From an uncultured Mucilaginibacter sp. (GTDB taxonomy: Bacteria; Bacteroidota; Bacteroidia; Sphingobacteriales; Sphingobacteriaceae): a stretch of DNA of 64,000 nucleotides. The notes under the pieces are model-generated. The model worked only from the letters and a program-made list of their open reading frames with translations. It made no database searches and had not been told where the DNA came from. The position numbers and the translations under genes were made by a program. Positions within the stretch are counted from its first letter, which is position 1. Each line of letters begins with the position of its first letter. The DNA is taken from assembly GCA_903891475.1 (NCBI GenBank), contig CAITEP010000008.1:1-64000 (forward strand), given 5' to 3'. This document shows, in pieces, positions 2,390 through 13,012 of this stretch.

Positions 2390-3739
2390 CTATAACCCAC
2401 TATCATCCAAGGCAAAAACGTTTTTACGGCTATTCCATTTACCTTTTGTAAAATCTGGGAATTGCTGGGGCATGTTACCTTCTGCTATTGATTTTTCGGA
2501 TAATGGGGTGATAACGCTCATGGTTACAGAATCATAAACATCAATTGGGGTTTGTTTTTGCTGTTTAACTGCTTCCACAAAGGCATTAAATACAAACCAA
2601 TCCATACCACCATGCCCTGCTCCTTCTGCCTTATTTTCATATTTTTTCCACAGCGGGTGATCGTATTTTTTAAACCAGTCATCTACCCCATCCCATTCAT
2701 CTTCATTTTTTGATTGATGGTCGATATAAACACTTTTGTTTACATCCATCCATAAGCCTTTTGTGCCTTGTACCCTAAAACCTAATGAGTATGGTCGTGG
2801 TAAATGCGTATCATGCGATAGCATAACTGTTTCGCCATTGGCACAGTTAATCATGGTGGTTACCACATCGCCATTTTTATAGTTCAGCTTCGCGTTTTTA
2901 TTACCCGGTGCCAGTTCTTCTACATAAGCTGCCAATCCACGTGCTTTTGAGCTAAACGAAACCAAATTGGTGAAGCGGTTACCTCTGTTTATGTTGGCAT
3001 ATTGCAAAACTGGACCAGCTCCATGTGTTGGGTAAATATCACCATCGCGGTCAATATTAAATTGTGTGCGCCATTGCGCTTCACTTAAGGCACCAGCCCC
3101 AAATTCCACCCCATGCCCATAAAAGTGTTGGCCATCATTAAACAAAACCCCACGTAAATTATGTTGGTAACCACCTTCAAAATGAATAAGCTCACCAAAT
3201 AACCCTTGTCTGCTCATATTTAATACTGCCATTACATCACGGCGATAGCAAACATTTTCTAAAGTCATGTACGGCATCCCTGTCAACTCGCTGGTTTTAA
3301 CTAAATCCCAATGCTCCTCTAAAGTTATACCTGCAATCACTTCGCAACCAACATATTTACCTGCATGCATGGCATCAATTGCTTGTTGATAATGAAATTG
3401 CCAGGGCGAAGCAATGATAATGGCATCAATTTCCTTTATATCAAGTAATTTTTTGTAAGCATCCAAACTACCTGTAAATTCCTTTGGTAAAGGCTTGCCG
3501 GCTTTTACAAACTGCTCTCTACAATATTTTAAAGAGCTTTCCTGAGGGTCGCATACGGCTACAATTTCAATATCATCTCTCATAAGCCCTTCACTTATGT
3601 GACTACGGCCTCTAAGGCCTACTCCTATATAACCTAGCTTAATTTTTTCCTTTTTTATAGCAAATAAGCTGGCGGTAGGTATCACGGTTAAGCTTGCCGC
3701 GGTAATTGTGCCCTGTTTTATAAACTCTCTTCGATGCAT
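2390..3739 (-). CDS. GH109-type Gfo/Idh/MocA enzyme (alpha-N-acetylgalactosaminidase family), Tat-exported
   Basis: This is a member of glycoside hydrolase family 109, NAD-dependent enzymes with a Gfo/Idh/MocA fold whose founding members remove alpha-linked N-acetylgalactosamine. The 449-residue length is usual for the family. Visible are a twin-arginine signal (MHRREFIKQG), a Rossmann motif GYIGVGLRG at residues 36-44, and family blocks ENVCYRRDVMAVLNM, GGYQHNLRGV, THGAGPVLQYANINRGNRF, LGFRVQGTKGLWMDVNK and GAGHGGMDWFVFNAF. It stands alone between rpsA and a divergent small gene. I infer a periplasmic location from the Tat signal. Substrate range in this family varies, so the GalNAc assignment is less sure than the family. 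Confidence 0.85.
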   Translation of the reverse strand: MHRREFIKQGTITAASLTVIPTASLFAIKKEKIKLGYIGVGLRGRSHISEGLMRDDIEIVAVCDPQESSLKYCREQFVKAGKPLPKEFTGSLDAYKKLLDIKEIDAIIIASPWQFHYQQAIDAMHAGKYVGCEVIAGITLEEHWDLVKTSELTGMPYMTLENVCYRRDVMAVLNMSRQGLFGELIHFEGGYQHNLRGVLFNDGQHFYGHGVEFGAGALSEAQWRTQFNIDRDGDIYPTHGAGPVLQYANINRGNRFTNLVSFSSKARGLAAYVEELAPGNKNAKLNYKNGDVVTTMINCANGETVMLSHDTHLPRPYSLGFRVQGTKGLWMDVNKSVYIDHQSKNEDEWDGVDDWFKKYDHPLWKKYENKAEGAGHGGMDWFVFNAFVEAVKQQKQTPIDVYDSVTMSVITPLSEKSIAEGNMPQQFPDFTKGKWNSRKNVFALDDSGL

Positions 3740-4156: not shown

Positions 4157-4516
4157 CCAAGTTAGGTTTGTTGATTTTGGTAAAATATTTCAGGCAATTA
4201 TAATATTAATTACATTCGCGTGTTACATTTAGCTCAATTCGGAAAAAGCTATTAATACCAAATCTCCTATGTAATAGCGTTGTTATTTTTGTTTATTCAG
4301 AAAAATAAACAAAAACTTATTGTGATGTTTGCAACAAAAACTTGTAATTTTCAATAAGCTTTACGTAAATACATTTGGTAACTTTTTTTATAAGGCTTTT
4401 GAATAAATACTAATTTAGAACTTCAATTTATAAAATGCTTTGTAAGATTGATGAAATTTTATTCAAAGAATAATAAATTCAAAAAAATAAAGTTAACTAA
4501 AAATAACAATTTACGA
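4157..4516. other. Intergenic AT-rich region with one inverted repeat
   Basis: No gene is visible in this stretch. It contains a perfect 12-base AT-rich inverted repeat (4287-4298 with 4305-4316, 6-base loop) without a clear T-run. It may be a weak terminator for the small membrane gene or a leader structure of the protease gene. Confidence 0.4.
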
Positions 4517-5644
4517 ATGAAAAAACATTACAATTTAACTAGATTAAATTTTCTTTTGATCGCTTTATCTATTACTGCTCTGGTTTCTTGTCACAAGGGT
4601 AATCAAGTTTTACCTACAAACGCAACACCAATTAAAATTGGACTCTATGAATATAGCGGACAAGGATCTGATTATACAAATTATACTTATTACGAATCTG
4701 ATATTCCAATTGCTACTATTGGTAATCAAACTGTAAATTATCAAATAATATTTGATACAGGTTCGGGAGGTATGGTTATTGATGCTGCAAACCTTATTCC
4801 TGCGTCAATGATAACCACTAACGGATTTAATTTTACTGGCGATTCAACAGTAGTAAACGGAATAACTATAACCAATCAAACCGGTACTATAAAATATGGA
4901 GCGAATGATGCTACTGCAGATAAGGTTTACGGAAACCTTGCCTATGCACAGGTAACTATTGGCGATCAAAATGGATCAGTAGTGGTGAAACGACTTCCAT
5001 TTTTATTATATTATAAAGCAGTAAATTCAAGTAATGTATCTTATCAAGCACATTTCTTTGATATTTTTGGTTCGTCAGAAATTTACGACTTAAATTTTGC
5101 AAACAATGTAAATTTAACATCGCCTTTTAGTTTTTGCACCTATGGTACGGGCTTAATAAATGGATTTAAACTCGCTGCTGTAGATGGATCGCAGTTTTCA
5201 TCATCAGGTACTTACGTGGCTGGGGCAATTACTCTAGGATTGACCTCTAATGATCTTTCAGCAAGCTCCGGTTTTATATTGAATCCTATTTCATTTAATG
5301 CCACCTATGGGTATTTTCCATATATATCAGGAATCGTGAATTATAAATCCTCACCAATTTCAACACATCTACTTTTCGATACCGGGACTAATTTCAGCAG
5401 TATAATAGATGATCCAAACTTTACAGGAACTGGTTTTTCGCAAATAAGTCCAAATTCATCCGTTACTGTTTCTACTAATTCAGGGTTTAATTATAATTTC
5501 ACAGTTACTAGTTCTACCAACCTGTCATTTGTTGAAGCGGCAACAAATGGTTTTAGCCAAAGTATAATGGGGATCGAGTATTTTTTCAAGAATGAGTTCT
5601 TGTGCGATTTAAAAAACCACCAAATAGGTTTAAAAAATAATTGA
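4517..5644 (+). CDS. Pepsin-like aspartic protease lipoprotein
   Basis: A 375-residue predicted lipoprotein (lipobox ALVSC, Cys at residue 25) with two aspartic-protease catalytic motifs. FDTGSGG has its Asp near residue 80 and FDTGTNF has its Asp near 288. The roughly 208-residue spacing and the FDTGS/FDTGT pair fit the two-lobed pepsin (A1) plan rather than a single-lobe retropepsin. After the first motif a segment with KYGAN and GNLAYAQVTIGD resembles the pepsin flap and following strand. I chose the ATG at 4517 because it gives a clean lipoprotein signal; the frame also opens at 4448. A terminator follows. Family assignment is by motif only. Substrate unknown. Confidence 0.65.
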   Translation: MKKHYNLTRLNFLLIALSITALVSCHKGNQVLPTNATPIKIGLYEYSGQGSDYTNYTYYESDIPIATIGNQTVNYQIIFDTGSGGMVIDAANLIPASMITTNGFNFTGDSTVVNGITITNQTGTIKYGANDATADKVYGNLAYAQVTIGDQNGSVVVKRLPFLLYYKAVNSSNVSYQAHFFDIFGSSEIYDLNFANNVNLTSPFSFCTYGTGLINGFKLAAVDGSQFSSSGTYVAGAITLGLTSNDLSASSGFILNPISFNATYGYFPYISGIVNYKSSPISTHLLFDTGTNFSSIIDDPNFTGTGFSQISPNSSVTVSTNSGFNYNFTVTSSTNLSFVEAATNGFSQSIMGIEYFFKNEFLCDLKNHQIGLKNN

Positions 5645-5738: not shown

Positions 5739-7022
5739 TCAAAATACCTCTCCCAAATTCACAAATACACCTCTCGAGCCATTGGTACCAATACCATAAT
5801 CAATACCCAGATTTGTATTTGATTGTTTATTTATTTTTATGCGAATACCACTACCATAGCCAGGAATAAAGGAATTTAGGTTTTTGGTAATGCTATGCGG
5901 GTAACTTTCAAGATTGCCAAATACAACCCCACCAATTAAACCATTATTAGTTAATGTGAATCTGTACTCCCCTTCCAAATAAATCATATTACGTCCTCTA
6001 AATCGATCAATTGGATAGCCTCTGCCTGTATTGTTGTAGGTATCATTACCCACACTCGGTAAATCAAGATAAGGAGGAGTACCATTCAATATAAGCCAAG
6101 TATAGCTCCAGAACGCCAATACATTGCTGGAGTTTTCTGACAGTTTAAAATACTTGCGTACATCAAGCTGTAGGCTTGTCCATTTAGTATCGCTACCCAA
6201 AAATTTAAAATTATCGCGAAAGATTAAGTTAGTATATAAGCCCCCTAGAGGATTAATGGGGTTAACCCTGTTATCAAATAATAAACCTATATTAATACCT
6301 GATGAATGTGATTCAGGTTTTTTAATGTATTTATTAAAAGTAGATGCCGCTAATTGATTTGTTGAACCTGTTTTAATGATGTTGAAATGGTAATCCAAAT
6401 CATAGCCTCCCCCTGCATAAAAGTTTTTTACTACCTTTTTTAAGAAAGTCTGATAAAATCTGATATAATTAAAATCGATACTATCTGCATTTGTACTTTT
6501 TGTTGCATTGCCTAAGCCATATGTTACATCGGGGTATTGATTAACCCTTAAATCGGTCACAATTTTCCATTGGTCGTTTTTAGTCCATATGTTCGATTGA
6601 GTGATAAAGGTTTGCTGACTATGCGAATCGTAAAAAGCTTGCAAATTAATTACTGATTCATTTCCCTTGTGCGAGGAATCAGTGTAAAATGTAGACACAC
6701 TACTTGCCCCAATAGTGAAGCCAGTAGATAAAGTATAGCCTGCTGTTGGAACTAAGGAAATAATTAATTTTTTCTCGTGTTTTTTTGCGGGGTTTTTTCT
6801 TTTAAATAATCGGCTAATATAATCGCCTAAATCGCGCTGTTTGGATGAATCAATATTTGAGGTATCCTTAAAATTAAATAAATGTTCAAAATTTGTGGCT
6901 GTTTTGCTTGCCAATGAATGATTAGGTAAAATGCAAAACAAAATAAGAATACAAAATGGAGTAATGGGAAATAAATTAAATTTTAAAGACTTAGGTTGTA
7001 AATAGATTAAAGGTATCCCCAT
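5739..7022 (-). CDS. BamA/TamA-like outer-membrane beta-barrel protein
   Basis: The product is about 427 residues and resembles the C-terminal surface-antigen (Omp85) barrel of BamA/TamA, without visible POTRA repeats. It shows an N-terminal hydrophobic signal region, a basic pre-barrel segment rich in Lys, alternating barrel strands, a block resembling NPINPLGGLYTNLIFRDN, a RFRGRNMIYLEGEYRF-type strand and a terminal Phe (GEVF), the typical outer-membrane sorting residue. The ATG at 7022 is preferred over an in-frame TTG at 7064. It may be a stand-alone patatin-type or lipid-related barrel. The role is not shown by its neighbours. Confidence 0.7.
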   Translation of the reverse strand: MGIPLIYLQPKSLKFNLFPITPFCILILFCILPNHSLASKTATNFEHLFNFKDTSNIDSSKQRDLGDYISRLFKRKNPAKKHEKKLIISLVPTAGYTLSTGFTIGASSVSTFYTDSSHKGNESVINLQAFYDSHSQQTFITQSNIWTKNDQWKIVTDLRVNQYPDVTYGLGNATKSTNADSIDFNYIRFYQTFLKKVVKNFYAGGGYDLDYHFNIIKTGSTNQLAASTFNKYIKKPESHSSGINIGLLFDNRVNPINPLGGLYTNLIFRDNFKFLGSDTKWTSLQLDVRKYFKLSENSSNVLAFWSYTWLILNGTPPYLDLPSVGNDTYNNTGRGYPIDRFRGRNMIYLEGEYRFTLTNNGLIGGVVFGNLESYPHSITKNLNSFIPGYGSGIRIKINKQSNTNLGIDYGIGTNGSRGVFVNLGEVF

Positions 7023-7115
7023 TGTTTGGTTAAAATTGGTTGAAAATAAATAAAACTGCTTCAAAATTTAGCTTGATTACGAAAAAAGCAGGTATTTTGT
7101 TTTATTTTTATTTGA

Positions 7116-8459
7116 CTATAAAACCAAGTAATAGTTTAAATTGATTAAATCTGTTGGGATATTTGTTTTGTTCCATGCATCATGAATAACTAAGGCCGCT
7201 CCTAATGCGGATGCTTGTGCCATGGTAGCTGAAAAAACTTCCATTTCATTAAAAACTTGTGCCAACATATTCATGAATAAACTGTTTTTACTAAATCCAC
7301 CATCTACAAAAATGCGCTTAACATTGCTGTTTTTAAGTATCAATTTGGTAGATATATATTGCTTGTTTACCAAGTAAATCATTAAACCATAGTAGGCCTC
7401 CTCGTAGGTTGAAAATGTAGTTAAATCCAGCTCTTCAAAACTCAAGTTTGATTTGTAATTTTTATTTATTTGGTTACATAATGCAAGACTAAACTTTACC
7501 TCTTGATAAGTTGTAACATCCTGATTAAAGTGTTTGGCAATACGGTCGCATTGTTGTTGGTGCATTTGTCCTAAAAACAAGCGGGAAGCTTTAACAGGTT
7601 TACCTTGATATTGAAAATAACTAAGACAATCTTCCTTCAATTCCTCAACCGTTAGCGTTGAATGATTGAATGGGTTTAAACTAATACTCCAGGTACCGGT
7701 AGATATTAAAATAAATGGCTCTTGAAAGTTCATTAAATAAGGCACCAATGCAGCCGAACTATCATGCATACCTATGCCAACATTTATTCTTTTGCTATTG
7801 TAATCAATTTTAGCAGTTTGTGTGGCATTTTCTATTGGCGCTAATTTCTCAAGTAAACCTTTATCTTCAGCCCATTGGTGGTATTGATGCTTTGAAAAAT
7901 CCCATAATGCTGTATGGCAGCCAATGCTGGTAATTTCTGAACAGTATTTGCCAGTTAACAAAAAGCTCAGATATTGTGGCAAATGCAAAGCAAATTTCAG
8001 CTTATTAAAAACTTTGTGGTTTTCATTTTTTAACCTATATAGTTGTAGTCCTGAATTTAAGCTACCTAAAGCTGGCGAGGCTGTTTCGGTACTTAATGTT
8101 TCTTCGCCACCGTATTTATTATATAGCTCGCTACTTAGCTTTACAGGATAGGGCTTTAGGTAATTATATAATGGACTGATGGGTTTTTCTTTATCACCCA
8201 TATTTACAAAACTGGCACCATATGCCGAGAAATTGATGGCCTTTATTTCAAATTCAGTATGCTTAATTGCCTCGTTTAATGAATCAAAAATAAAACTGTT
8301 TAAGCTTTGCAAGTTTTCGCATGGGAAGCCATCTTCATCAGTTATTTCATCTAAATGAACTGATTTTTCAAAAACAATATGGTAATTCTCATTAAACAGA
8401 AATAGCTTCTTATTTGTTTTTCCAATATCAAATATGGCTATCACCGGAATATGATTCAT
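7116..8459 (-). CDS. FGGY-family sugar kinase, probable L-rhamnulokinase
   Basis: Predicted to phosphorylate L-rhamnulose to rhamnulose 1-phosphate using ATP, the step between the isomerase and aldolase encoded just upstream. The 447-residue protein has the FGGY N-terminal phosphate-binding start (FDIGKTNKK, residues 10-18), an ISTGTWSISLNP segment and the C-terminal GGFSKNSLFMNMLAQVF block seen in FGGY kinases. It is the last gene of the rhamnose operon, 18 bases after the isomerase gene. It is more divergent than enteric RhaB, so I leave the symbol open. L-fuculokinase-like activity is possible, but the context favours rhamnulose. Confidence 0.85.
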   Translation of the reverse strand: MNHIPVIAIFDIGKTNKKLFLFNENYHIVFEKSVHLDEITDEDGFPCENLQSLNSFIFDSLNEAIKHTEFEIKAINFSAYGASFVNMGDKEKPISPLYNYLKPYPVKLSSELYNKYGGEETLSTETASPALGSLNSGLQLYRLKNENHKVFNKLKFALHLPQYLSFLLTGKYCSEITSIGCHTALWDFSKHQYHQWAEDKGLLEKLAPIENATQTAKIDYNSKRINVGIGMHDSSAALVPYLMNFQEPFILISTGTWSISLNPFNHSTLTVEELKEDCLSYFQYQGKPVKASRLFLGQMHQQQCDRIAKHFNQDVTTYQEVKFSLALCNQINKNYKSNLSFEELDLTTFSTYEEAYYGLMIYLVNKQYISTKLILKNSNVKRIFVDGGFSKNSLFMNMLAQVFNEMEVFSATMAQASALGAALVIHDAWNKTNIPTDLINLNYYLVL

Positions 8460-8477
8460 AAACCTAATATACAGTAA

Positions 8478-9752
8478 TTATAAACCTGTGGCTATTGTTT
8501 TTAAGCCTCTTTCTTTTATTAAGGTTTCTCTCACCTTTAGTTTTCTAAATACTTCTAAAGGATTTAAGGCGCCACCGGCAATCAAACTGGCCTCGGCTAT
8601 CAGTGGACGAACATCGATGCGGTAGGCTGCTTGTAAAATCTCTTGTGCCAATGCCACATCATTATTTTGCTGCGCTTCAACAAGGGCTGATTTATCGACC
8701 AATAATGCCTGCGCGTAGGCTATTTTTATTGCTTGTACCGATTGTATCAAATCTTCTATCGGGTCTTTTATATTGTGCGAGGCATCTATCATCCAGCCTA
8801 TGGCAGTAGCATGGTTCATGCCTCGGGCATCCATGCCTTCTACCAATTCGTTAAATATTAGAAACAATTGGTAAGGATTGATACTACCAACTGTTAAATC
8901 ATCGTCACCATACTTTGAATCGTTAAAATGGAAACCAGCAAGCTTGCCTTCCATCAGCAACAGCGAAACTATTTGCTCAATATTGGTGCCTTGCAGATGA
9001 TGTCCTAAATCAACCAAGGTAGCCGCTTTAGGTCCCAATTTGGAAGCCAATAAATGTGATTGCCCCCAATCGGCAATGGTGGTTGAATAAAAGTTCGGTT
9101 CGTAGGGTTTATATTCTATCCAAATTTTCCAATCCTCTGGTAGTCGACTATAAATTTCTTGTAAGCTTTCCAAGGTATTTTGAAACGCTTTACGAAAGTT
9201 TAACTGCCCCGGGAAGTTCGACCCATCCGACAGCCAGACGGATAATGCTCTAGAGCCTAATTGCTTCCCATATTTTATTACCTCCAAATTATGGTCAATT
9301 GCCTGTTGCCTCACTGCTTTATCAACATGGTGCAAGGAGCCAAACTTATAACTTAAAGGCTGATTGGCTTGGTCTTGAAAAGTATTTGAGTTTACCGCGT
9401 CAAAATGTAACCCATGCTCCTTGGCAAGGGCTATTATTGCATTCGCGTTTTCGGGAATATCCCATGGGATATGTAAGGAGATTGAATTACTTGATTTATT
9501 GAGCGCGTGAATTATGCCTACATCTTCTATTTTTTCTTCCAAGCTACGAGGTTCCCCACCTCCCGAAAACCTACCAAAACGTGTACCACCAGTACCCAAT
9601 GCCCAACTTGGAATGGTAACATTAAAATCCGAAATTTTATTTACAATGCTTTTTATATCAGGAATTTGAGATGATAAGTACTCAAACTGCTGTATATGTT
9701 TAGTCAAGTGTGGATGATTTAATTCATCAATTTCACTACCATTTAATTTCAT
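8478..9752 (-). CDS. rhaI: L-rhamnose isomerase (Pseudomonas-type, RhaI)
   Basis: Interconverts L-rhamnose and L-rhamnulose in the cytoplasm, first step of the phosphorylating pathway. The 424-residue TIM-barrel protein belongs to the RhaI type rather than enteric RhaA. The metal-binding residues of the P. stutzeri enzyme have clear counterparts: E213 in IEYKPYEP, D248 in LVDLGHH, H275 in FHFNDSKYGDDD and D323 in GWMIDASHN. An N-terminal PSWALGTGGTRFGRF block is also typical. It sits between the aldolase-dehydrogenase (37-base gap) and the kinase (18-base gap) in one leftward operon. Confidence 0.92.
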   Translation of the reverse strand: MKLNGSEIDELNHPHLTKHIQQFEYLSSQIPDIKSIVNKISDFNVTIPSWALGTGGTRFGRFSGGGEPRSLEEKIEDVGIIHALNKSSNSISLHIPWDIPENANAIIALAKEHGLHFDAVNSNTFQDQANQPLSYKFGSLHHVDKAVRQQAIDHNLEVIKYGKQLGSRALSVWLSDGSNFPGQLNFRKAFQNTLESLQEIYSRLPEDWKIWIEYKPYEPNFYSTTIADWGQSHLLASKLGPKAATLVDLGHHLQGTNIEQIVSLLLMEGKLAGFHFNDSKYGDDDLTVGSINPYQLFLIFNELVEGMDARGMNHATAIGWMIDASHNIKDPIEDLIQSVQAIKIAYAQALLVDKSALVEAQQNNDVALAQEILQAAYRIDVRPLIAEASLIAGGALNPLEVFRKLKVRETLIKERGLKTIATGL

Positions 9753-9789
9753 ATTTTAAATTGGTTTGTTATCCCGATAGTTTTAAAAA

Positions 9790-11910
9790 TTATCTTACAA
9801 AAGCTGCCGCAACCCCGCCATCAACATTCAACACATTCCCTGTTGATTTATTTAGCAAGCCACCGGTTAAGGCAAAACATGCATTGGCTATGTCAATAGG
9901 TAATATGGTTTGGTTTAAAAGGGTGCGTTTGGCATAAAAGGCAGGTAATTCTTCTACTGTAATACCATAGGCTTTTGCGCGCCCTTCGGCCCAGCCGCCG
10001 GCCCAAATATTACTATCGCTTATTACCGCATCAGGGTTTACAATGTTTACCCTAATGTTATCGGCTCCTAACTCTGCCGCGTTTAAATGGCTTAAATGTA
10101 ATTGGGCAGCTTTCGCACTGCCATATCCGGCATTATTCGGGCCGCTAACCAAGGCGTTTTTACTGACGATATTTATGAAATCCCCACCAATAGCTTGTTT
10201 TTTCATTACCTCAACAACTGCCTGGGTAGTAAAAAATTGCCCTTTTACCAATACATCGTACAACAAGTCCCAATCCTTTTCGGTATGGTCGGCTATGGAT
10301 TTGGAGATGGATAGGCCGGCATTATTTACAACAAGGTCAACCCCTCCAAAATTCAGGATAGCTGTATCGATGGCTTGTTGTATGTCATCCATTTTGGTAA
10401 CATCTAAAACAGCCGAGGTTACCGCATCATTACCGAATAGCTTTTTAAATTCCTCCACCGCCCCAGCTAACCTATCGGCATTCATATCATTTAATAAAAC
10501 TACCGCGCCTTCTTCGGCAAATTTCTTGGCGATGGCTTTTCCTATGCCTCCTGCACTACCTGTAACCAAGGCAATTCTACCCGAAAGTGCCTTTGGTTTT
10601 GGCATGCGCTGCAATTTGGCTTCTTCTAAAAGCCAATATTCAATATCAAATGCTTCTTGGCGTGGCAAGGAGGTATATTCTGAAATGGCCTCCGCTCCTT
10701 TCATAACATTAATGGCATTGATATAAAATTCGGAGGCTACCCTGGCTGTTTGTTTATCCTTCGCGAAGGTGAACATGCCAACACCCGGATAAAGAATCAC
10801 CACCGGATTGCTATCGCGAATAGCCGGACTATTCACATGTTTACATGCATTATAATAATCGGTATATAATTGTCTATAACCTTCAAAAGCTGGTAATAAC
10901 TTTGCTTTAATGCTATCTACATCAGTTAAATCGGCATTGGGAGCTAAATCCAACACCAGCGGACTAATTTTGGTGCGTAAAAAATGGTCGGGGCAGCTGG
11001 TACCCATGGGTGCTAAACGCTCCAAATCGTTTGAATTTATAAACTCTAAAGCCCTTGGGTCGTCGGTAAAGTGCCCAATCATTTTGGTGTTTGATGAGCA
11101 AAAACCTCGTAAAATTGGTGCCAATGCAATCGCTTGTTTTTTACGCTCGGTTTCGGGCAAACTCTGCAGTTTCGCGCCTCCAAAAACAGGTGCTTTTTTT
11201 CCATAATTTTGCTCCAAAAATTCGGCGCACTTTTCAATTACTTCAAGTGTGTTTATATAACTCTCGTACGCGGTATCGCCCCAGGTAAACAAGCCGTGTG
11301 AGCCAAGCATAATACCACGAATGTTCGGATTATTATCCAAACAAGCTTTTAATTGCAGACCCAAGTCGAAACCAGGGCGTTGCCAATCAACCCAGCCTAT
11401 GGTGCCTTTAAAAAGTTCCTGCGTAATGCGTTTACCATCCTTTGCTGCCGCAATGGCTATTGCCGCGTCGGGATGCAGATGGTCGATGTGTTTAAATGGT
11501 AAAAAGCCATGCAATGGTGTATCAATGGAGGGTGCTTTCGAGTTGAGGTCGTATATGCAATGGTTAAATAGTTCCACCATTTCATCTTCAAATGCTAAAC
11601 CTTTATACACATTTTTTAGGCTTCGCAACCTATCAACATACAAAGCGGCTAAACCACTTTTCTTTAAGGTACCAATATCACCACCCGAACCTTTTATCCA
11701 CATTACTTCAACAGGTTGCCCTGTTAATGGGTCGGCTGCTATGGCCTTGCAGGATGTATTACCACCACCGTAGTTGGTTAACCTTAAATCGGCACCTAAC
11801 AAGTTCGAGCGGTATATTAATAGCGCTACCTCATCTCTAGCTAACTCCGCTGCCTTAGCATCGTCCCACAAATAACTTACGTGCTTATAGGTTTTATTGT
11901 TGTTTGACAT
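9790..11910 (-). CDS. rhaD: Fused rhamnulose-1-phosphate aldolase / short-chain dehydrogenase
   Basis: A 706-residue bifunctional enzyme of the RhaD aldolase-alcohol-dehydrogenase family. The N-terminal class II aldolase domain (about 20-420) cleaves rhamnulose 1-phosphate to dihydroxyacetone phosphate and L-lactaldehyde. It shows the family blocks TNYGGGNTSCK, HGFLPFKHIDHLHPD (134-148) and GSHGLFTWGD (203-212). The C-terminal SDR domain (about 443-706) should oxidise or reduce the lactaldehyde. It has TGSAGGIG at 450-457, NNAG at 529-532 and the YGSAK catalytic motif at 596-600. The ATG at 11910 (MSNNNKTYKH) is preferred over an in-frame TTG at 11955, which lies inside rhaT. It follows rhaT by 19 bases. 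Confidence 0.93.
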   Translation of the reverse strand: MSNNNKTYKHVSYLWDDAKAAELARDEVALLIYRSNLLGADLRLTNYGGGNTSCKAIAADPLTGQPVEVMWIKGSGGDIGTLKKSGLAALYVDRLRSLKNVYKGLAFEDEMVELFNHCIYDLNSKAPSIDTPLHGFLPFKHIDHLHPDAAIAIAAAKDGKRITQELFKGTIGWVDWQRPGFDLGLQLKACLDNNPNIRGIMLGSHGLFTWGDTAYESYINTLEVIEKCAEFLEQNYGKKAPVFGGAKLQSLPETERKKQAIALAPILRGFCSSNTKMIGHFTDDPRALEFINSNDLERLAPMGTSCPDHFLRTKISPLVLDLAPNADLTDVDSIKAKLLPAFEGYRQLYTDYYNACKHVNSPAIRDSNPVVILYPGVGMFTFAKDKQTARVASEFYINAINVMKGAEAISEYTSLPRQEAFDIEYWLLEEAKLQRMPKPKALSGRIALVTGSAGGIGKAIAKKFAEEGAVVLLNDMNADRLAGAVEEFKKLFGNDAVTSAVLDVTKMDDIQQAIDTAILNFGGVDLVVNNAGLSISKSIADHTEKDWDLLYDVLVKGQFFTTQAVVEVMKKQAIGGDFINIVSKNALVSGPNNAGYGSAKAAQLHLSHLNAAELGADNIRVNIVNPDAVISDSNIWAGGWAEGRAKAYGITVEELPAFYAKRTLLNQTILPIDIANACFALTGGLLNKSTGNVLNVDGGVAAAFVR

Positions 11911-11929
11911 GTTTAATAGATAAAAATAC

Positions 11930-13012
11930 TTACTTAATAGAGTTGCCGTAGCCAACTATAACAACTGATAAAATGATGGTGACAATACCGCCAATCACTG
12001 TAAACTTTGCCTTGCGGCTCACACCCTTCCACTCGTTTAAAACCAGTCCCCAAGTATTGGCTATTAAAATTATGAAGGCCATGTGCAAAATCCAGGAGCT
12101 TGCGCCATTGCCTAGCCTGCTCTCGCCCATGCCATAAAAAAAGAATTGCAAAAACCATATGGTACCTGCCAAAGCCGAAAAAAGATAATTTTTTAATAAG
12201 GGCGTTTTTTTATCGGTATAGTTTGCAAAGGTTTTATTCCGGGCATTTAATATCATGCACCAAATAAAATTAGTGGTTAGGCCTCCCCATAAAATAACTA
12301 CATATATCACATTATTTTGGTAAAGGAAGTTCCCCTGCCCATGATGGCTCAATTGCCAAATGGTATTGGCAGTATCGGCCATGCTTTTGCCAGCCTCAAT
12401 TCCAAAATTAAAACAGGCGCTCAGCACACCCGAAACGATGGCTACAAAAATACCAAGACCAAATTTGTATTCCTTATTATCCTCTAAATCGGCCACTCCT
12501 GCTTTTAGTTCCTTTTCTTTCATGGTGCCCGCTAAACCACAAATAATGATGCCGATTACGCAAATCAAAATCCCGAACAATACGTATTGCCCCCACTGGC
12601 TAGTGAAAAAGATAACAATGGAATCTTTGCCTGTTTGCGGGAAGAAGTTGTAGTAAACAGATGGAATTAAAGCACCAAACACGGCGCATAATCCTAAAAT
12701 AATGGTACTACCAAGCGAGACGCCCAAATACCTAACGCCAAGCCCGTAGGTAAGGCCTCCAATGCCCCAAAGTAAGCCAAAAATATAGGTAATTAATAAA
12801 ATTTTGCCTTGGCTATGCGATATGATTTCGGTAAAGTTTGGAATAGTTAACCAGGCAGCCAAAGGCGGAACAATGAACCAGGAAAATACACCCCCAACTA
12901 TCCAAAAGCTTTCCCAGGCCCAACCTTTTACTTTTTTGTAGGGAATATAAAAACTACCCGAAGCAAAGCCTCCAAAAAAATGGAATATAACGCCAAGAAT
13001 TACTTGCATCAT
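11930..13012 (-). CDS. rhaT: L-rhamnose/H+ symporter
   Basis: Inner-membrane importer of L-rhamnose of the RhaT family. The 360-residue product is almost entirely hydrophobic, with about ten predicted helices. It begins with the typical HFFGGFASGSFYIPYKKVKGWAWESFW region and has LGVSLGSTIILGLCAVFGALIP and a C-terminal WGLVLNEWKGVSRKAK segment, all family-like. It is the first gene of the operon, so it sets expression of the three enzymes that follow. Start is one of two adjacent ATG codons (13012 or 13009). No dedicated rhamnose regulator gene is linked. Confidence 0.92.
   Translation of the reverse strand: MMQVILGVIFHFFGGFASGSFYIPYKKVKGWAWESFWIVGGVFSWFIVPPLAAWLTIPNFTEIISHSQGKILLITYIFGLLWGIGGLTYGLGVRYLGVSLGSTIILGLCAVFGALIPSVYYNFFPQTGKDSIVIFFTSQWGQYVLFGILICVIGIIICGLAGTMKEKELKAGVADLEDNKEYKFGLGIFVAIVSGVLSACFNFGIEAGKSMADTANTIWQLSHHGQGNFLYQNNVIYVVILWGGLTTNFIWCMILNARNKTFANYTDKKTPLLKNYLFSALAGTIWFLQFFFYGMGESRLGNGASSWILHMAFIILIANTWGLVLNEWKGVSRKAKFTVIGGIVTIILSVVIVGYGNSIK

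Follow-up and report, generated by a model that had tools for sequence, protein, structure and literature searches.

Gene organization and anatomy of the encoded chain

The analysed window, a stretch of 64,000 nucleotides from an uncultured Mucilaginibacter sp., contains on its forward strand a gene for a pepsin-like lipoprotein of 375 amino acids (positions 4517..5644, stop codon counted), which was delimited by its open reading frame, its translation and the presence of homologues in relatives. An alternative start of this frame is a TTG codon at 4448; when translation is read from the ATG at 4517, the cysteine of the lipobox is residue 25. The chain is organized sequentially as a hydrophobic signal, the LVS-C25 lipobox, a tether, and a beta-rich domain harboring D80-T-G-S and D288-T-G-T. 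A first-pass annotation had described this frame with a lipobox and two DTG motifs 208 residues apart, and all of these elements were recovered, FDTGSGG corresponding to residues 79-85 and FDTGTNF to residues 287-293.

The lipoprotein signal peptide (4517..4591, with the C25 codon at 4589-4591) was called from the sequence by inspection by eye and from the alignment column, where Cys is present in 91 of 93 rows and the remaining 2 are gapped, in agreement with the lipoprotein assignment previously made; a helix is predicted at residues 8-23 in the second AlphaFold model. The short tether (residues 26-37; 4592..4627) is followed by the folded domain, whose structural matches start at residues 34-39, and it is thus too short to accommodate a pepsin-type propeptide. 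The N-terminal lobe (approximately residues 38-232; 4628..5212), defined by the fold match and by a profile match to the pepsin N-lobe, includes the first catalytic motif, D80-T-G (4754..4762), the flap Tyr127-Gly128 (4895..4900) and the first hydrophobic-hydrophobic-Gly segment, I183-F184-G185 (5063..5071). The C-terminal lobe (approximately residues 233-375; 5213..5641), recognized from the whole-chain fold match, includes the second catalytic motif, D288-T-G (5378..5386), and the second hydrophobic-hydrophobic-Gly segment, I350-M351-G352 (5564..5572). The boundary between both lobes is approximate.

Conservation of the predicted catalytic and flap residues

Conservation was assessed in an alignment of 93 rows, constituted by the window protein and 92 distinct open reading frames of at least 250 residues, out of 128 matches in the collected loci. 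D80 was kept in all 92 rows reaching that column, D288 in 93/93 and G290 in 92/93, while the flap position 127 was occupied by Tyr (78/93) or Phe (15/93) and followed by Gly in 92/93; this conservation supports the flap-like Tyr-Gly segment noted earlier. Both D[TS]G motifs were found in 91 of the 93 rows, with 201-213 residues between them; the two exceptions were L014, which ends before the first motif at a contig end, and L101, in which the second motif is DTS. Such conservation of D80, D288 and the flap indicates that the double DTG motif goes beyond chance. Judging by sequence, the protein displays the layout that defines A1 enzymes, namely a single chain of two lobes that both carry an hh-D-[TS]-G-[STA] motif (IFDTGS and LFDTGT).

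Other positions displayed both constancy and variation. G185 was present in 93/93 rows; position 352, the glycine of the second hydrophobic-hydrophobic-Gly segment, was Ser in 78, Gly in 12 (the window protein being Gly) and Ala in 3 of the 93; and residue 291, matching pepsin 218, was Thr in 89/93. No Cys was found downstream of C25 in 84/93 rows. Immediately after the lipobox, position 28 was Asp or Glu in 74/93 rows; the Capnocytophaga-type signal for export to the surface, C-X-K-(D/E)2, was present in a single row (1/93), other than the window protein, and gives no indication of surface exposure, although it may not be the signal used by Mucilaginibacter.

Predicted fold

Two AlphaFold models were obtained, one from a 32-row alignment (model 1; pLDDT 89.7, pTM 0.85) and the other from 59 rows, i.e., the window protein and 58 loci (model 2; pLDDT 91.7, pTM 0.86). 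Human pepsin (1psn) matched models 1 and 2 with Z values of 21.6 and 21.5, over about 270 residues and with rmsd of 3.3-3.4, superposing model residues 38-375 on chain residues 1-325, and other human pepsin entries among the matches listed gave Z values of 20.9-21.6. The 50 matches listed per model by VIA were all pepsin-like aspartic proteases (Z 20.8-22.1, 256-288 residues, rmsd 2.8-4.0), covering model residues 34-39 through 373-375, as were the 50 listed per model by Foldseek (E 1.6e-11 to 7.8e-10). The Foldseek TM-scores were moderate (0.44-0.63, with rmsd of at least 6 over gapped columns), and lobe orientation or loops may therefore differ from those of pepsins. Eukaryotic enzymes among the structural matches listed share 12-19% identity with the window protein.

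The comparison of a predicted structure with pepsin was one of the checks proposed in the first-pass annotation. Both models fit pepsins along the whole chain, superposing from about residue 37 to 375, which bears only indirectly on whether the two DTG motifs lie close and face each other. The models predict a pepsin fold over model residues 38-375; together with the conservation and the profile alignment, they back the two-lobed layout first read from the two motifs.

Sequence relationship to pepsin

A profile of the 32-row family compared with one pepsin sequence gave an E value of 0.0005 (probability 32), and the 93-row profile compared with six A1 enzymes by hhalign reached a score of 43.3 (E 5.8e-5, probability 65.6), the best of 100 column shuffles scoring 28.0 and the reversed profile 20.5. 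This last alignment pairs D80, Y127 and D288 with D32, Y75 and D215 of pepsin, and Tyr127-Gly128 with pepsin Tyr75-Gly76; it also pairs I350-M351-G352 with ILG, and the C-terminal IGLKNN with VGLAPV. When lobes were compared separately, the N-lobe profile scored 42.1 against the pepsin N-lobe (best of 60 shuffles, 21.2), and the C-lobe profile 18.8 against the pepsin C-lobe, under the control maximum of 23.5, so that the link of the C-lobe to pepsin comes from the fold and is not backed by sequence. Masking the DTG motif left a match of 20 columns across the pepsin flap region, which still scored 25.6 (best of 60 shuffles, 20.5).

The counterpart of pepsin Trp39 is Val87 in the window protein; BACE1 likewise lacks Trp39. 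The counterpart of pepsin Asp303 is ambiguous in the alignment, being either Ile353 or Glu354, and residues such as the pepsin 218 and 303 counterparts were poor predictors of pH in shewasin A.

Searches against PDB sequences gave results that varied with the query. An 11-member diverse profile had as first match 4ehc, the mycobacterial PE_PGRS16 domain (E 0.0008), with renin and pepsin at E 0.14-0.66, and 4ehc was also the first match of the 59-row profile (E 0.0043); in both cases the alignment included the two aspartate motifs and a C-lobe stretch. The 32-row profile matched nothing up to E 10, and the single window protein gave weak unrelated matches only (best E 0.21). In the structural comparison by VIA, 4ehc matched model 2 with Z 20.9 over 256 of 280 residues and an rmsd of 2.8, the lowest among the matches listed, and it was absent among the 50 listed for model 1. 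Among bacterial domains of known structure, that of PE_PGRS16 comes closest, and the profile matches are suggestive of a sequence link to it that is not yet secure.

Comparison with curated family models

Against PF00026, the A1 model of Pfam, the window protein gave no match up to E 10, and it reached no Pfam or NCBIfam cut-off; its pepsin-like character is therefore one of fold and layout and not of a curated model. Within that E limit, Pfam gave a single hit to the window protein, a weak stretch of Asp_protease_2 (PF13650; E 0.2, 12.9 bits vs a cut-off of 24.3), and not the pair of domains above the cut-off that a tandem protein would display. Among family members, PF00026 matched weakly in 1 of 32 and 2 of 59 (best E 0.002), and Asp_protease_2 was the most frequent Pfam hint (11/32 and 15/59, best E 0.0043), these hints being no stronger than that of the unrelated model DUF5643 (best E 0.0022). 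Genome scans with PF00026 gave no match in 296 genomes of the phylum, but control genomes gave none either.

The PecA model NF038019 (PE_process_PecA) matched neither the window protein nor 11 diverse members up to E 10, and a scan of 148 genomes gave one match, under the cut-off and outside the genus. A DTGS motif also occurs in the bacterial family DUF3443 (PF11925); it was found in none of 148 genomes, a scan in which control genomes were silent too.

Distribution, copy number and diverged relatives

When 120 relatives (the own genome among them) were searched with the single protein, homologues were identified in 50, every one of the same genus. Profile searches, in which the best 5-7 first-look candidates were scored per genome and distant relatives may thus be missed, gave 31 positives among 251 genomes of the family (26 from the genus, counting the own genome, 3 from a neighbouring genus and 2 weak N-terminal matches) and 3 among 395 genomes of the phylum, all within the genus and including the own genome. 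The 2 weak positives (G203 and G286, from another genus) were dropped, as they aligned weakly over residues 7-69 only, and the G203 locus (L133) did not match a larger profile. A contig scan across 84,980 species yielded 142 candidate stretches, of which 102 were confirmed; the titles of the 80 retained among these were all Mucilaginibacter, Sphingobacteriaceae or 'Bacteroidetes'. No relative was confirmed in viral contigs by either the single-protein or the profile scan, none was found by tblastn in plasmids or phages, and plasmids gave no match to the human pepsin sequence. Among the open-licence papers listed, none was found on a Mucilaginibacter pepsin-like lipoprotein family.

Some genomes carry two or three copies. 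Three copies in a row occupy one contig of 6118 bases (L134, G050:C382), and two in a row are found in G002 (L135). One gene copy (G310:C11:94848-95945) is interrupted by an internal TAA stop and is possibly a pseudogene. A divergent set (L130, L131 and L132; 24, 28 and 30% identity) retains FDTGS, its second motif being DSG; two of its genes (L130:598-1797 and L131:849-2045) are without a lipobox and encode FDTGSAG and LDSGNPG, a DTG/DSG pair as reported for PecA.

Genomic neighbourhood

Neighbouring genes were clustered in 76 stretches, corresponding to the window and to 75 of the 80 loci retained from the contig scan (those longer than 8000 bases). No other gene family accompanied the protease gene in over 20 of these stretches, and with no conserved neighbour, gene context gives no indication of the substrate. 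In the window, the convergent neighbour (5739-7064, reverse strand) encodes an Omp85 domain barely over the Pfam cut-off; the full order of neighbours recurs only in L031, and members of the family of this Omp85 neighbour also lie close to the protease gene in L065 and L087. Further along the reverse strand, a gene run resembling rhamnose use (7116-13012) comprises an FGGY kinase and then open reading frames which we take to be isomerase-like, aldolase-dehydrogenase-like and transporter-like. On the other side, positions 2390-3739 (reverse strand) encode a GFO/IDH/MocA protein whose C-terminal domain is that of glycosyl hydrolase 109. The promoter pattern TTTG-N17-23-TANNTTTG was unmatched just upstream of the gene and unenriched across the window, sigma-70-like sites were near chance level, and no terminator-like site was found.

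Discussion

With the integration of the conserved motifs, the predicted fold and the profile alignment, we consider it probable that the window protein is a lipid-anchored, propeptide-free, single-chain, two-lobed aspartic endopeptidase of the cell envelope. The interpretation is supported at the level of a protein that works like a pepsin, and the family is best read as a branch, in Gram-negative bacteria, of the pepsin-like enzymes that are rare among bacteria. In pepsin, water is activated by a pair of aspartates. The lipobox suggests that the protein would be exported and lipidated at C25, and the tether of about 12 residues would keep the pepsin-shaped domain outside the cytoplasm; D80 and D288, one from each lobe, would meet in the cleft as the pair that activates water, and a peptide would be cut while held beneath the Tyr127 flap, as the anatomy of the domain suggests. 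With no propeptide and mostly no cysteines after C25, the enzyme would be expected to need no zymogen processing to become active. Taking PecA, which trims surface proteins as well as itself, as a guide, its targets are most likely proteins of the envelope or from outside the cell.

Comparison with known enzymes delimits what is particular to this family. Pepsin, cathepsin D and fungal A1 enzymes share with the window protein the whole-chain fold, the catalytic pair and the flap Tyr-Gly, whereas the family is devoid of a propeptide and of Trp39, and mostly of cysteine pairs. Shewasins and other bacterial A1 homologues are likewise constituted by one chain with two lobes, two aspartates and a Tyr/Phe flap (PMC2761423, PMC4814920), and shewasin D also lacks a prosegment, its native form being mainly cytoplasmic (PMC4814920). 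The 2009 survey by Rawlings and Bateman reported no bacterial A1 homologue with a predicted signal peptide, in contrast to the lipoprotein signal of the window protein, and most of its set has Ala after the second DTG, where the window protein has Thr (PMC2761423). PecA, a mycobacterial surface aspartic protease whose substrates are PecA itself and further surface proteins, is 43% identical to PE_PGRS16 in the protease domain (PMC6819658). PecA and PE_PGRS16 (4ehc) have in common with the window protein the pepsin fold, predicted in the latter; PecA lies at the cell surface, carries a PE domain and is exported by type VII secretion, whereas the window protein has a lipobox and no PE domain. 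The earlier statement that such enzymes are uncommon in bacteria stands for pepsin-like enzymes in general, but a surface-located aspartic protease of broadly the same kind was already known in PecA (PMC6819658). According to PMC12239564, the retropepsin-like APRc, RimB and RloA share the aspartic motif, and RloA also a signal peptide, but they have one lobe per chain and an active site at the dimer interface, unlike the window protein. Amuc_1434 from Akkermansia, a secreted aspartic protease placed in A1 by a 2026 review, is described as pepstatin-inhibited and extracellular, features that the window protein may share; its report gives one DTG and one hydrophobic-hydrophobic-Gly, a likeness to the retropepsin-like APRc and an optimum pH of 8.0.

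Other explanations have to be weighed. Asp_protease_2 being the most frequent Pfam hint of the family, a fusion of two retropepsin-like (A2-type) domains within Bacteroidota that became pepsin-like independently was considered. Asp_protease_2 proteins are common near the own genome (28 of 31 genomes), which itself encodes a protein with two such matches, the second barely under the cut-off, and the two lobes of the family resemble each other around the motif with scores of 29.7 (E 0.0005) and 21.4 depending on direction (control maxima 20.2 and 20.4). With the motif masked, however, the score fell to 17.6 one way, and the 22.5 obtained the other way covered a different, out-of-register stretch of 15 columns, so that as a sign of young duplication the likeness was not upheld beyond the DTG motif. 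Moreover, the N-lobe prefers the pepsin N-lobe, comparison with the tandem family gave low scores (whole chain 25.7, E 0.025; N-lobe 19.9; C-lobe 22.5, without shuffles), and the own tandem protein and 13 of 14 relatives carry DLG where a second DTG would stand; this origin is, overall, improbable, and the profile comparison does not link the own tandem protein to the pepsin-like lipoproteins. The tandem protein itself (L136:921-2198; G000:C16) is retropepsin-like with DTG followed by DLG, and one of its lobes may be inactive.

Some plant and placental A1 homologues are non-proteolytic, and such homologues usually lose catalytic residues. The pepsin fold might likewise be retained here in a binder or scaffold, as the Ser at the second hydrophobic-hydrophobic-Gly, the loss of Trp39 and the Phe at the flap in part of the family would allow; both D[TS]G motifs are nonetheless intact in nearly all of these diverged homologues, and we regard a non-enzymatic role as unlikely, even though, according to PMC6819658, the study devoted to PE_PGRS16 observed no proteolysis by it. 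The narrow distribution, which in the searched samples took in the genus and a single neighbouring one, could also suggest that the genus recently acquired an A1 gene from a eukaryote; this is very hard to reconcile with the low identity to the eukaryotic enzymes among the structural matches listed, the absence of a propeptide and, mostly, of disulfide cysteines, and the fact that two profiles had a bacterial protein as their first match among PDB sequences, and we give it little credence.

Regarding the origin of the lipid-anchored endopeptidase that we favor, we propose only tentatively that it represents a hitherto undescribed Gram-negative lineage in Mucilaginibacter and a neighbouring genus, which may descend from a bacterial pepsin ancestor common with PecA and independent of eukaryotic A1 enzymes. 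If true, such a shared ancestor would favor the view that the two-lobed pepsin is old and arose in bacteria. The characterized two-lobed bacterial kinds found in print are either cytoplasmic (shewasins) or type VII-exported (PecA), and a lipid-anchored, propeptide-free lineage common in one soil genus constitutes a harmless system for testing the role of a bacterial pepsin outside the cell. Furthermore, any answer to whether two-lobed pepsins predate eukaryotes can now draw on the family as a distant branch.
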